From NCBI GenBank assembly GCA_018817005.1, contig JAHIUF010000015.1:1-63312 (forward strand): a stretch of DNA of 63,312 nt, written 5' to 3'. Both the position numbers and the translations under genes were made by a program. This stretch comes from Nanobdellota archaeon (GTDB taxonomy: Archaea; Nanobdellota; Nanobdellia; Woesearchaeales; GCA-2686295). Below are positions 26,256 through 38,965 of this stretch, in pieces (position 1 is the stretch's first letter; every line of letters starts with the position of its first letter). The notes under the pieces are model-generated. The model saw only the letters and a program-made list of their open reading frames with translations, ran no database searches and was not told the origin of the DNA.

Positions 26256-29200
26256 TTAACCTTCCACAACAATAGTTTGACAAAGTCTATTTCCATTTTC
26301 TAATTCTATTCTATCGAAATAATTATACAAGTCATTATTCAAAAATTCTATGCACACCTTATTATAAACTTGTGTGCTATTATATCTAAGCATACCCGAT
26401 CCGCTGAAAGTAACTTTCTCGCCTTGAAGAAGAGTTACAGCACCGTTTTCAAATCCTCGAACCTCTGAAGTCAAATCCTTTCTAGGGGTGAAAAGCAGCA
26501 CTTTAAACTTTAAACCATCCTTTTTAGCATTGTAAACACCACCAGATATAAAATAATCATAATAACTATAACCACTATCAGTTGCCATTCGCTGGCTTCT
26601 CGTAGCAGTAATATAAGAAGCGCTTGTATAAGATAATGTTCCTTCTTTAATCATAGTAAAAGATGATTGGTCGGCGTTCTTGTCATACTTACCTTGACAA
26701 ATCTGTGTTTCAGGGAAAGCAACCTTGTCAATCGCTTTGTTAGCCTCATTTAAAAGATTAGTAAGCCATGGCATAAAATGAGAATCCTCACCCCTTTTAA
26801 GACCAAATAAATCTTTCATCAAACCCATAGTTTTTCCAATGCCAAGCATACTCTGCCAAGCACCAAAACCAGTCCAAAGAAGCTCGTAATTAGCATCAGT
26901 CTTAAGATTTGCCATGCCTTTATCCATGTCTTGCTTTAATTTTTTATCTTGCTTCTCAAGAGTTTTTATATCTTTATTTAGTTTTTTCAATCTTTCTTTT
27001 GCTTGCTCCTCAGTATACAATTCCGGCTCACCATCCTCATAAATCCAAATTGTGTTATCTCCTTCAGCAATTTGAGATTCAATATCAACTATTTTACCTG
27101 ATTTGGTTGATATGTCTGTGTCTCTATCTGCCTTACCATTATAATAAGCATCTTGCGCATCAGCATAAGCTATCATAGAAGTAGAAAGGTCAGGATATTC
27201 TTTAGCAAAGTCTCTTATCAATTTACTTTGAGTTCTTGTTGCTTCTTCATAACCATTTTCTCTCACAACTTTTGCTTTTTCAAAATTAGGTTTTCCATTC
27301 TTAAAAAGACCTAAATCAGCATACCAGCCATATTCATCTTCTTTATCAACATTTATAACAACACTAGAGGGAGTCCCTGAGCCAGTTGATGAATCTGTAC
27401 TATCTGCACCAGTTGTACCTGAAGCAATTTCAAGAGAAGTGGAATCAAAAAACAATGTTTGTGCTAACTCGTCACCAGAAGTGCCTGCAGGAATCTGTGG
27501 AGGAATTATTTCTCCTGTATCAAGATTAGTACTGGGTCTAGAAGCTAAGTAATCAGCGATAATTATTGACTTGGATATGTCATTAAATTCTTTATTAATT
27601 TCTGAAGCAGTTCCTTTATACTCTGCTCCTCCGCTGCCATCATCATAGAATATGTAAACATCGTTAGAATATATATTTCCATCATTAGTTGTTCCTCGAC
27701 CTGTAGCGCCAACTTCTGCTGAGAAGCTTAAGCCTTTCATTCCTGATGCATCGTTGAATGTGCACATTCCGTCTTTGCAGGTTCCGATTACTGCTCCTGC
27801 ATCATTTTTTATGTCTTGTTGGAAATCTACGAGGTCTGGTTGTGTTGACATACCTTGCCAGTATTGAGTTCTTGGATCGATTGCAGTGATTACTTGTTCA
27901 CAATAATTATCTATTCCAGGATCTACCAGTCCTCTTGGGTCTATCATATCACCTATTATGCTCCAAACCCTAGTTATGGATGTTATTCCTGCAAGTGCGT
28001 TGCATGTTCCTTTTACTGCATGTTCTATTGGTGTTATTCCTGGTAGTAATTTACAGCCAACTGAAACTCCCGCTGTTGTTAAAAATGTTACTGGGTCGCT
28101 AAAGATTCCTTTTATCGTGTTTCCAAGGTCTCTTATGAGAGAATAAAAAGGAATAATACTAAATATGCCGCCCAAAGTATGCACACATTCTGCGTAGTGC
28201 TTGTCTGCTTTACATTGGCTTGGTGATGAACCCATATAACCTGTTCCTTCACTTAAGCATCTTGCATAGTTGCATTCTATTGCCATGCTTGTTTGTCTGT
28301 GCACAATTATTGCTGGTAAGCAAAAACTAGCAATTGCCATTGCCTTACTGTTATAGGGATTAAATGCTTGTTTGACATCATTATAACCCGCAAGTTTTGC
28401 TGCAAAATCCACGCCAGGAATTTGTCCCATTAAATTAGAAAGCCACATTTGCCAATCAGCTGTACAGGTAAAAGCTTCACATATTGGAAGAACAAATTTT
28501 TGAACTGCAACATTATCTCCTAAAACACCTGTTGCACTGCTTACTTGCCCTAAAGAGAATGGCACATATGATAATGATGGAACAGCTGCAAGTCCTGCTG
28601 TCGCTGTTTCAGCAACGCCTGTTGCTTCTGATAATCCTTTTATTCCAGTAACAATTTGACACCCAAAATATATTTTTCCAAAAGTATCCTGTAGTTTTGA
28701 TATCCAGTCTCTGTCTTTTTGTATGTTTACTTCTGCTTTCACTATTTCTTCTCTTATTCTTTGACTCATTGATTTGATTGCGTCAAAATCTATTTCTATG
28801 AAGAAGTCTTGTGTTTCATAAATCGTGTTTACAAAGTCTCCTCTTTTAGTAAGTATGTTTACACTGCAGTTATATTTGGCTTTTGTCAGATTTTCGTATC
28901 TGTGACCGGCCATTTGAGCCATTTCTGCTGTCAAATAAATCTTGTCTTGTGAAAAGTATAAAATGTTTGGATCTTTAATATCCGAGTCATCACCAAGTAT
29001 TCCTTTACATTCAAATGAGTTTTCTTCAACATCAATTATTTCTGAACTTTCTTTTCCTGGTTGTGGTTTTAAATCAAGGTTCACAAATATTTTTCTTGGA
29101 AATACAAGATTGTCTTTGTTTACTTTTTTTGGACTTTGCTGTATACTTTCTATGACCCAATTATCTGGTGTTATGTCTTCATCTGCTCCGTAGATTTGTA

Positions 29201-30239
29201 TTGTTTCAGTTATTTTTTCTTCGTTTCCTGCAAAGTCTTTGAGTGTGAATTTGAGCTCTGCAACGTATGGTTCTGTACCGTCCACATTTGTTGAGAATTC
29301 ACATCGCCAGTTATCACCATTTTTCAAACATTCTTTTTCTGTTTTTCCCCCTCCAACTCCTGAAAAGTTTACTTCTACTTTAGGTGTTGAAGTATCATCA
29401 TAAACATCTACGATTACTGACATCGTATCGCCGACTTTTATAACTTCAAAGCCTGTTGAACCAGACATGATTGTAATGCTTAATTTCTCTGGAGGTTCTG
29501 AGTCGCATATAAGATTATTTTCAATCATTCCTTCTGTTATTGCATTTCCAGCATCGTCTTGACTTGGAATACGGTTCATTCCTGCGAGTGATACTTTTAT
29601 TTCTTCTCCTGATTCACAAGTTACACGTATTGTTTTTACACATTCTAAGCCTTCACAATCATCAACTGTATATACAACTCTGCTTTTGCTCATTTGAAAG
29701 AATATCAGACCTTTCTCAAAAGTCGCTTTTGAATCTAATAATTTGATTTTTAAATCAGTTATTTTTCTTGATGGAATGTAGCAAACATCGCCTTTGCAGG
29801 TGTTTGTTCCTATGAATTCAACTGTTGGTTTTGTATTGTCTATTTCAAAGTTGTTTTCTATAGTATTTTCAGTCATAGTTCCAGTATTATCTTCTAGTTT
29901 GAAAGTGATGTGTGCAGTTCCTTTATTTAGCCACAACATAATATTTTCTGCGAAACATGTGTATTCTTTACTTGTTTCGTTATAATCGCAGTTCTCTATA
30001 GGTACAGGATAATTTTTGTAAAACCTGTATTTGGGGTTATAGTTTATATCTGATAAATCAACAATTATCCTTGTTAGGTTTTCTCCTGTTACTTTAAACC
30101 CCATTGTACTAACAACAGGATTGTATGATACTGCGCTTATTGGCTCTCCGTATGTATAGAAGACGACGTTTTCTACTTGTAGTCCAAAAACAAGGTTTAT
30201 TGACAAAAGTGTTATTAGCAGGAGCCAAATTCTTCTCAA
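26256..30239 (-). CDS. Giant secreted/cell-surface protein (1327 aa)
   Basis: Starts with a signal peptide (MRRIWLLLITLLSINLVFG). The first 500 residues contain Ig-like beta segments (IDNTKPTVEFIG, TAHITFKLED and LKFTLKDFAGNEEKI strands) with disulfide-type cysteine pairs. The middle (about 540-800) has hydrophobic stretches and many cysteines (CTADWQMWL, CLPAIIVHRQT, CKADKHYAEC). A coiled coil follows at about 1040-1100, then a beta-rich C-terminus. The start is TTG, with AGAGG about 10 nt upstream and a TATA box (CTATTTATAAG) near 30274-30284. This looks like a DPANN cell-surface or attachment protein; no specific family is recognised. Confidence 0.6.
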   Translation of the reverse strand: MRRIWLLLITLLSINLVFGLQVENVVFYTYGEPISAVSYNPVVSTMGFKVTGENLTRIIVDLSDINYNPKYRFYKNYPVPIENCDYNETSKEYTCFAENIMLWLNKGTAHITFKLEDNTGTMTENTIENNFEIDNTKPTVEFIGTNTCKGDVCYIPSRKITDLKIKLLDSKATFEKGLIFFQMSKSRVVYTVDDCEGLECVKTIRVTCESGEEIKVSLAGMNRIPSQDDAGNAITEGMIENNLICDSEPPEKLSITIMSGSTGFEVIKVGDTMSVIVDVYDDTSTPKVEVNFSGVGGGKTEKECLKNGDNWRCEFSTNVDGTEPYVAELKFTLKDFAGNEEKITETIQIYGADEDITPDNWVIESIQQSPKKVNKDNLVFPRKIFVNLDLKPQPGKESSEIIDVEENSFECKGILGDDSDIKDPNILYFSQDKIYLTAEMAQMAGHRYENLTKAKYNCSVNILTKRGDFVNTIYETQDFFIEIDFDAIKSMSQRIREEIVKAEVNIQKDRDWISKLQDTFGKIYFGCQIVTGIKGLSEATGVAETATAGLAAVPSLSYVPFSLGQVSSATGVLGDNVAVQKFVLPICEAFTCTADWQMWLSNLMGQIPGVDFAAKLAGYNDVKQAFNPYNSKAMAIASFCLPAIIVHRQTSMAIECNYARCLSEGTGYMGSSPSQCKADKHYAECVHTLGGIFSIIPFYSLIRDLGNTIKGIFSDPVTFLTTAGVSVGCKLLPGITPIEHAVKGTCNALAGITSITRVWSIIGDMIDPRGLVDPGIDNYCEQVITAIDPRTQYWQGMSTQPDLVDFQQDIKNDAGAVIGTCKDGMCTFNDASGMKGLSFSAEVGATGRGTTNDGNIYSNDVYIFYDDGSGGAEYKGTASEINKEFNDISKSIIIADYLASRPSTNLDTGEIIPPQIPAGTSGDELAQTLFFDSTSLEIASGTTGADSTDSSTGSGTPSSVVINVDKEDEYGWYADLGLFKNGKPNFEKAKVVRENGYEEATRTQSKLIRDFAKEYPDLSTSMIAYADAQDAYYNGKADRDTDISTKSGKIVDIESQIAEGDNTIWIYEDGEPELYTEEQAKERLKKLNKDIKTLEKQDKKLKQDMDKGMANLKTDANYELLWTGFGAWQSMLGIGKTMGLMKDLFGLKRGEDSHFMPWLTNLLNEANKAIDKVAFPETQICQGKYDKNADQSSFTMIKEGTLSYTSASYITATRSQRMATDSGYSYYDYFISGGVYNAKKDGLKFKVLLFTPRKDLTSEVRGFENGAVTLLQGEKVTFSGSGMLRYNSTQVYNKVCIEFLNNDLYNYFDRIELENGNRLCQTIVVEG

Positions 30240-30291
30240 TTTACATATCCCTCTTTTTATTTATTGTGCTACACTCTTATAAATAGTTTTC

Positions 30292-30300
30292 TATTAGTTT
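30292..30300. repeat. Target-site duplication, left
   Basis: TATTAGTTT, repeated exactly at 30391-30399 on the other side of the 90-bp MITE. Confidence 0.85.
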
Positions 30301-30390
30301 GGCTCTGTAGAAACCCTATTTTGGTTTCGTCGAGCGATTATTTCACAAACATAGTATATAGTGTCAAAAGCAGAGGGTTTCTACAGAGCC
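30301..30390. mobile_element. 90-bp MITE with perfect 17-bp terminal inverted repeats
   Basis: Termini GGCTCTGTAGAAACCCT (30301-30317) and AGGGTTTCTACAGAGCC (30374-30390) are perfect inverted repeats. The 56-bp interior has no coding capacity. Identical 9-bp flanks show a transposition event that has not decayed. The GGCTCTGT ends resemble those of IS6-type insertion sequences, but the family is inferred from memory only. No parent transposase is in this window. Confidence 0.9.
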
Positions 30391-30399
30391 TATTAGTTT
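30391..30399. repeat. Target-site duplication, right
   Basis: TATTAGTTT, the second copy. It overlaps the stop codon of the small Cys-rich gene (30398-30400). Confidence 0.85.
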
Positions 30400-30583
30400 A
30401 TAAACTCTTATTCAGCATTACTTTGTCGTATATGCTTTTTGCGTGTTCACACGGCTCTTTATCCCAACTACAATTATGTATGCAGCAGCCAAGGTGGACC
30501 ATTCCTCCATGTTGTGCACATAGAACTAGTGAGTCGGAACTTTCGGCAACTCTTTCTTCGCATAGCTTGCATGAGATTGGCAT
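30398..30583 (-). CDS. Small Cys/His-rich zinc-finger-like protein
   Basis: A 61-residue protein (MPISCKLCEERVAESS...) with CxxC near the N-terminus, then LCAQHGGMVHLGCC, CSWDKEPCEHA and a helical tail; spacing suggests one or two zinc sites. ATG 30583 is chosen because a TATA-like GTTTTTATATGG lies about 27 nt upstream. Its stop codon lies inside the target-site duplication of the MITE, which therefore inserted exactly at its 3' end without disrupting it. Confidence 0.65.
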   Translation of the reverse strand: MPISCKLCEERVAESSDSLVLCAQHGGMVHLGCCIHNCSWDKEPCEHAKSIYDKVMLNKSL

Positions 30584-30721
30584 TTTCTTGATTTTTAACA
30601 AGCAAAGACCATATAAAAACATTCTTAACTACTTAAAAATAGTGATTTTAGTAAACATTTTTAAATTAACTAATATTTTCCAATTACAACATTTAATAAA
30701 AAAACAATAAAAGGTGAAAAA

Positions 30722-38854: not shown

Positions 38855-38965
38855 GCCTCCGTGGCTTAGTGGCTATAGCGGTCGCCTAGTAATAACAAAA
38901 AAGAAAAAAAATCTTTTTTGGAATCAGACAGCGACAGGTCGTGAGTTCAACTCTCACCGGAGGCT
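38855..38965 (+). tRNA. tRNA-Thr with 38-nt intron, anticodon reads AGT
   Basis: Acceptor GCCTCCG pairs with CGGAGGC, T arm GTGAG-TTCAACT-CTCAC, anticodon stem GTCGC/GCGAC, discriminator T. The loop reads CTAGTA, then an intron (38892-38929), then A, giving anticodon AGT at 38888-38890. The intron contains its own hairpin (AAAAGA with TCTTTT). A34 is unusual in archaea, and the A disrupts the core helix of the splicing motif (CTAG against TCAG), so function is somewhat uncertain. TATA-like AGTTTTAAAAG lies 26-36 nt upstream. Confidence 0.85.

Follow-up and report, generated by a model that had tools for sequence, protein, structure and literature searches.

Introduction

Promoter-upstream targeting has been reported for Mutator-like elements in bacteria and for retroelements of Pol III genes in eukaryotes. 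The bacterial TnGBS/ISLre2 and ISKra4-group elements, which carry Mutator-like transposases, insert 15–17 bp upstream of the sigma-A -35 box, in one orientation or in two, as set by the symmetry of their ends (PMC3942029). In yeast, Ty3 integration is confined to a narrow stretch ahead of Pol III genes, where its intasome contacts TBP within TFIIIB (PMC8632968), and in the gene-dense genome of Dictyostelium TRE5-A lands on the upstream side of tRNA genes, ~47 bp away (PMC5391098). For the woesearchaeal family described here, positional targeting offers a way to spread in a crowded genome without breaking genes. We found no report of promoter targeting by archaeal IS5 elements in the literature searched, which was mainly open-access.

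Here we describe a short mobile element in a 63,312-nt stretch of woesearchaeal DNA (hereafter the window), together with related elements of other Woesearchaeales. These elements share with the TnGBS type the strategy and a strikingly similar spacing, at a fixed distance from the promoter, but the TnGBS type combines a Mutator-like transposase with bacterial promoters, whereas here an IS5_2 transposase is combined with the archaeal BRE/TATA. The woesearchaeal elements therefore work like the TnGBS type without being members of it, their transposase being IS5_2 and not Mutator-like. Ty3 likewise has a narrow insertion window upstream of genes, in its case those of Pol III, but relies on a retrotransposon integrase at Pol III promoters, and TRE5-A differs in being a non-LTR retrotransposon. 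What is new is how archaeal IS5_2 elements choose their target, which is anchored to promoters; the element in the window is itself of a known kind, a MITE.

A recently inserted MITE upstream of a BRE/TATA

The element measures 90 bp, and its arms form a perfect 17-bp inverted repeat, 56 nt apart. Allowing up to three mismatches, the terminal 17-mer occurs nowhere else in the window (chance expectation 0.04 matches), and the ORF list holds no frame of 40 aa or more inside the element. The locus is laid out as follows.

30398..30583, minus strand: 61-aa gene, upstream, its stop codon overlapping the right duplication; intact
30391..30399, no strand: right copy of the 9-bp target site duplication (TSD)
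30374..30390, minus strand: right terminal inverted repeat (TIR)
30318..30373, no strand: MITE interior, 56 bp, common to the second copy in this genome and absent from the IS
30301..30317, plus strand: left TIR, GGCTCTGTAGAAACCCT
30292..30300, no strand: left copy of the TSD, TATTAGTTT
30286..30291, minus strand: BRE-like GAAAAC adjoining the duplication (consensus RAAANC before TTTAWAWA), conserved in relatives
30276..30285, minus strand: TATA box TATTTATAAG of the 1327-aa gene, 15–17 nt from the element end
30249..30255, minus strand: Shine-Dalgarno-like AAGAGGG ahead of a TTG start
26256..30239, minus strand: gene with the targeted promoter; encodes a 1327-aa protein with a signal-peptide-like N-terminal stretch

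The 61-residue gene corresponds to a 74-aa ORF (30398..30622, minus strand) read from an internal ATG; its product has no Pfam or NCBIfam match, and its TAA stop shares two bases with the right duplication. On the other side, the outward flank reads AAACTAATA-GAAAAC-TATTTATAAG, and at 61 nt, behind the AAGAGGG, comes the TTG with which the 1327-aa gene starts; its protein matches no Pfam family above cut-off. In three related genomes (G001, G002 and G006), AATAGAAAA(C/T)TATATA is kept before the orthologous gene (33–34% identity) without an insert, with TATAGAAAACTATATA in G001. Before the insertion, only ~15 bp separated the upstream stop codon from the TATA box. The window TATA fits a matrix trained on the cousin elements described below less well than does a TTTATA at the opposite junction.

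A first-pass annotation had called this feature a recent MITE insertion with 17-bp perfect TIRs and an exact 9-bp duplication, and the coordinates of the arms and of the TATTAGTTT repeats, together with the three relatives that have the same promoter uninterrupted, bear it out. The same annotation placed the landing site at the stop codon of an undamaged gene: the gene is indeed whole, but the actual target was the promoter of its neighbour, the 1327-aa gene, where the element lies upstream of the BRE/TATA. The stop codon lay that close to the TATA by happenstance. The 90-bp repeat is thus a real mobile DNA element, recently inserted, with the following marks of a MITE: it is short, has TIRs and a TSD, lacks a transposase gene, occurs in more than one copy and has an autonomous element with matching ends.

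A probable IS5-family partner in the same genome

The second copy lies inverted on another contig of the 91-contig genome (C46:7284-7372); it is 89 bp long, 92% identical and has its own 9-bp TSD, TCAATAATA. The autonomous partner was read from fragments at contig ends. Three of these (C3, C5 and C88) carry GGTTCTGTAGAAACCCT and then an ORF start (MSVIQYKFKKFSKI...), and four (C38, C40, C42 and C43) carry the transposase end and GGCTCTGTAGAAATGCT. The flanks, read by eye, pair through exact 9-bp TSDs (C3/C43 by GATGAGGGA, C88/C38 by TTTTGAAAA and C5/C40 by TAAACACCG), so that the fragments represent one IS, collapsed by the assembler and present in at least four copies. Its ends match the 17-bp end of the MITE at 16/17 and 15/17 positions. 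The annotation had expected a mobilising transposase elsewhere in the population, and this IS, to judge from its ends and TSDs, would supply one within the same genome. Also, a further copy and a full IS with matching ends were both found, the former on C46 and the latter in a relative that has the exact 17-bp end.

That relative is an intact IS of 994 bp (JAHJDQ010000046.1; 17/17 at the left end; duplication TGTTCTTAG), and a second intact IS of 990 bp carries the duplication GGAAAAAAC (JABIJM010000015.1). The transposase of the intact relative scores 140.3 bits with NCBIfam NF033579 (transpos_IS5_2), whose cut-off is 140, that of one cousin contains Pfam DDE_Tnp_1 and DUF772, and the fragment from the own genome gives a weak match only (E 0.023). 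In the catalytic D, D, E, D115 and E246 are invariant, and the second D is present in three of the four aligned relatives. The relative of the window MITE is therefore an IS5-family (IS5_2) element of ~990 bp, intact in other Woesearchaeota. The fourth aligned transposase, of an IS5 cousin in G005 (L079/L096, G005:C1), has N as second catalytic residue (YANRGYD) in an intact ORF and, on its sequence, is possibly inactive.

With IS5-family IS and their MITEs these elements share the length of ~990 bp, the single ORF, the short inverted ends and the 9-bp duplication. The IS903 subgroup of IS5 presumably has ends of the form GGCTTTGTTGAAT... and a 9-bp duplication; the duplication recurs here, and the ends look similar. 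In contrast, a fixed spacing to archaeal promoters was not found described for IS5 in the literature searched, and the interior of the window MITE does not derive from the IS found. Compared with the known IS, this interior showed no similarity, only the ends being common to both; the IS interior accordingly found no support as its source.

The only clear PF01609 transposase in the own genome, on contig C9, was also considered as partner and rejected: by eye it resembles IS1182, and it showed no matching ends. Its ORF (G000:C9:1262-1921, L014) lies between fragments that resemble another transposase, a nested insertion. The 17-mer has no exact match in viral contigs. Contig C5 holds a decayed IS copy at C5:11411 and a solo, exact left TIR with an IS-like flank and no partner end (G000:C5:16151-16167, L024), neither of which was counted as an element; the solo TIR now makes up the sequence upstream of a 513-aa ORF. 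In the own-genome IS (C3, C5 and C88 ends), a hairpin, strong at -24.3 kcal/mol (z -6.5), spans the 5' region directly ahead of the transposase start, and similar-looking inverted repeats precede the transposase start in cousins (L110, L109 and L095). Such a hairpin possibly shields the start codon from read-through transcripts.

Elements lie at a fixed distance from TATA boxes

A de novo caller that required the ends and the 9-bp duplication yielded 19 distinct elements in Woesearchaeales loci, namely MITEs of 89–308 bp and two IS, and the element pattern was far above the reversed control (353 genomes). A TTTAWA lies at offset 13–17 outward (starting at 15 or 17 nt), always on one side, in 12 of the 19, a count to be read knowing that the spacing hypothesis arose from about a dozen and a half flanks which partly overlap the test sets. 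The intergenic null for the same loci expects 0.92 of 19 at this offset, and none of 200,000 simulations reached 12. In the remaining seven a strict TTTAWA at 15–17 is missing, and several of them show near-matches.

A cousin family with different ends (GGCTAATATGAAAYCC) served as a test set chosen by end sequence alone; it has TTTAWA at 15–17 in 37 of 116 flanks, a few of which (in G003, G005, G015 and G070) had been seen previously, against ~1.1 per other 3-bp bin. The offsets form a single sharp peak at 15–17 over a background that is flat to 100 bp. With the TATA at 15, the flank consensus of the cousins is RAAANC-TTTAWAWA, a BRE followed by a TATA box, directed away from the element. The matrix trained on these cousins, applied to the 19 elements, found its best match at 13–17 in 11 (null 6.8%). 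Additionally, all six IS5_2 elements that could be delimited, each with different ends, have TTTAWA at 14–17 on one side; two of them are also in the earlier sets.

Taken together, these data demonstrate position targeting: the element family inserts 15–17 bp from a TATA box, on one side only, with the duplication abutting the BRE. The pattern has Woesearchaeales as its scope; in Thermoplasmata and Methanocellaceae, element ends were not delimitable. The GGCTAATATGAAAYCC family occurs in 37 of 288 Woesearchaeales genomes, with up to 32 ends per genome, and follows the same target rule.

An ATG ORF starts 43–48 nt from the element end in 11 of the 19 elements (0.49 expected). Measured from the TATA, an ATG ORF lies at 26–34 nt in 8 of 12 targeted boxes as compared with 10 of 79 other intergenic TTTAWA. 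The targeted TATA boxes are thereby shown to serve genes, most of which, given the distance to the ATG, look leaderless, with the element near -45.

How the target may be chosen

We propose that transposase from the full IS5_2-type elements of the same genome would recognise the 17-bp ends of the MITE, as suggested by the similarity of the ends, and insert it through a 9-bp staggered cut. The target is chosen by position: the insertion falls directly beside the BRE/TATA of an active promoter, on its upstream side, and the TATA lies 15–17 bp from the element end. By analogy to Ty3 and TFIIIB/TBP, contact with promoter-bound TBP/TFB may place the transposase-target complex. The outcome would be an insertion at about -45 that leaves the core promoter intact, along with the genes on either side. 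We put a probability of roughly 80% on the reading that the window feature is a non-autonomous IS5-type MITE, mobilised in trans and inserted just upstream of a BRE/TATA; the docking of its transposase on TBP/TFB we infer from the Ty3 analogy.

A possible, though rather doubtful, alternative is that the transposase reads the DNA sequence or the bendability of the BRE/TATA directly, with no host protein involved. The targets do share a clear sequence, RAAANCTTTAWAWA, and the archaeal ISH6 has an AT-rich target preference and duplicates AANATNTT (PMC3942029). However, a two-fold symmetric strand-transfer complex should occasionally produce a motif on both sides, and two-sided elements number 0 of 43, where ~4 would be expected were the sides independent. 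This one-sidedness modestly favours an asymmetric bound factor over symmetric DNA recognition. The excess of promoters among targeted TATAs, compared with other intergenic TTTAWA, also speaks against direct reading.

Untargeted insertion of an ordinary MITE, followed by purging from all but the short gaps of a compact genome, is very improbable. The genomes are gene-dense and the ancestral gap at this locus was short, as such a history would have it, but purging predicts a broad spread within gaps, whereas a single peak is observed relative to intergenic positions of the same loci, and the intergenic null further disfavours it. Since the peak is three bases wide, selection against gene hits cannot alone explain the spacing.

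It is scarcely credible that the feature is a palindrome that does not move, serving as a terminator or a regulatory RNA hairpin and resembling a MITE by chance: the transcript does fold strongly (-33.2 kcal/mol, z -5.6), but exact 9-bp duplications of different sequence flank the two sites in the genome, the second copy being inverted, an IS with the same ends exists, no Rfam family matched, and related genomes lack the palindrome at the same place.

Returning to TBP/TFB docking, we lean slightly towards a general form of it, in which the archaeal IS5-family elements widespread in Woesearchaeales would home to promoters by transposase contact with promoter-bound TBP/TFB, as a DNA-transposon counterpart of Ty3 targeting. 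If true, this would be a third independent case of promoter-upstream targeting, joining archaeal TATA promoters to IS5-type transposases, and would show how mobile DNA can persist in genomes that are tiny and packed with genes. A simple transposase would also be tied to TBP/TFB in a way open to direct testing, and the elements and their MITEs would mark active promoters and could provide a natural promoter map for uncultured DPANN archaea.

Elsewhere in the window, at 38855-38965 on the plus strand, Rfam reports a tRNA of 111 nt (51.5 bits) for which there is no ARAGORN call; it probably contains an intron.
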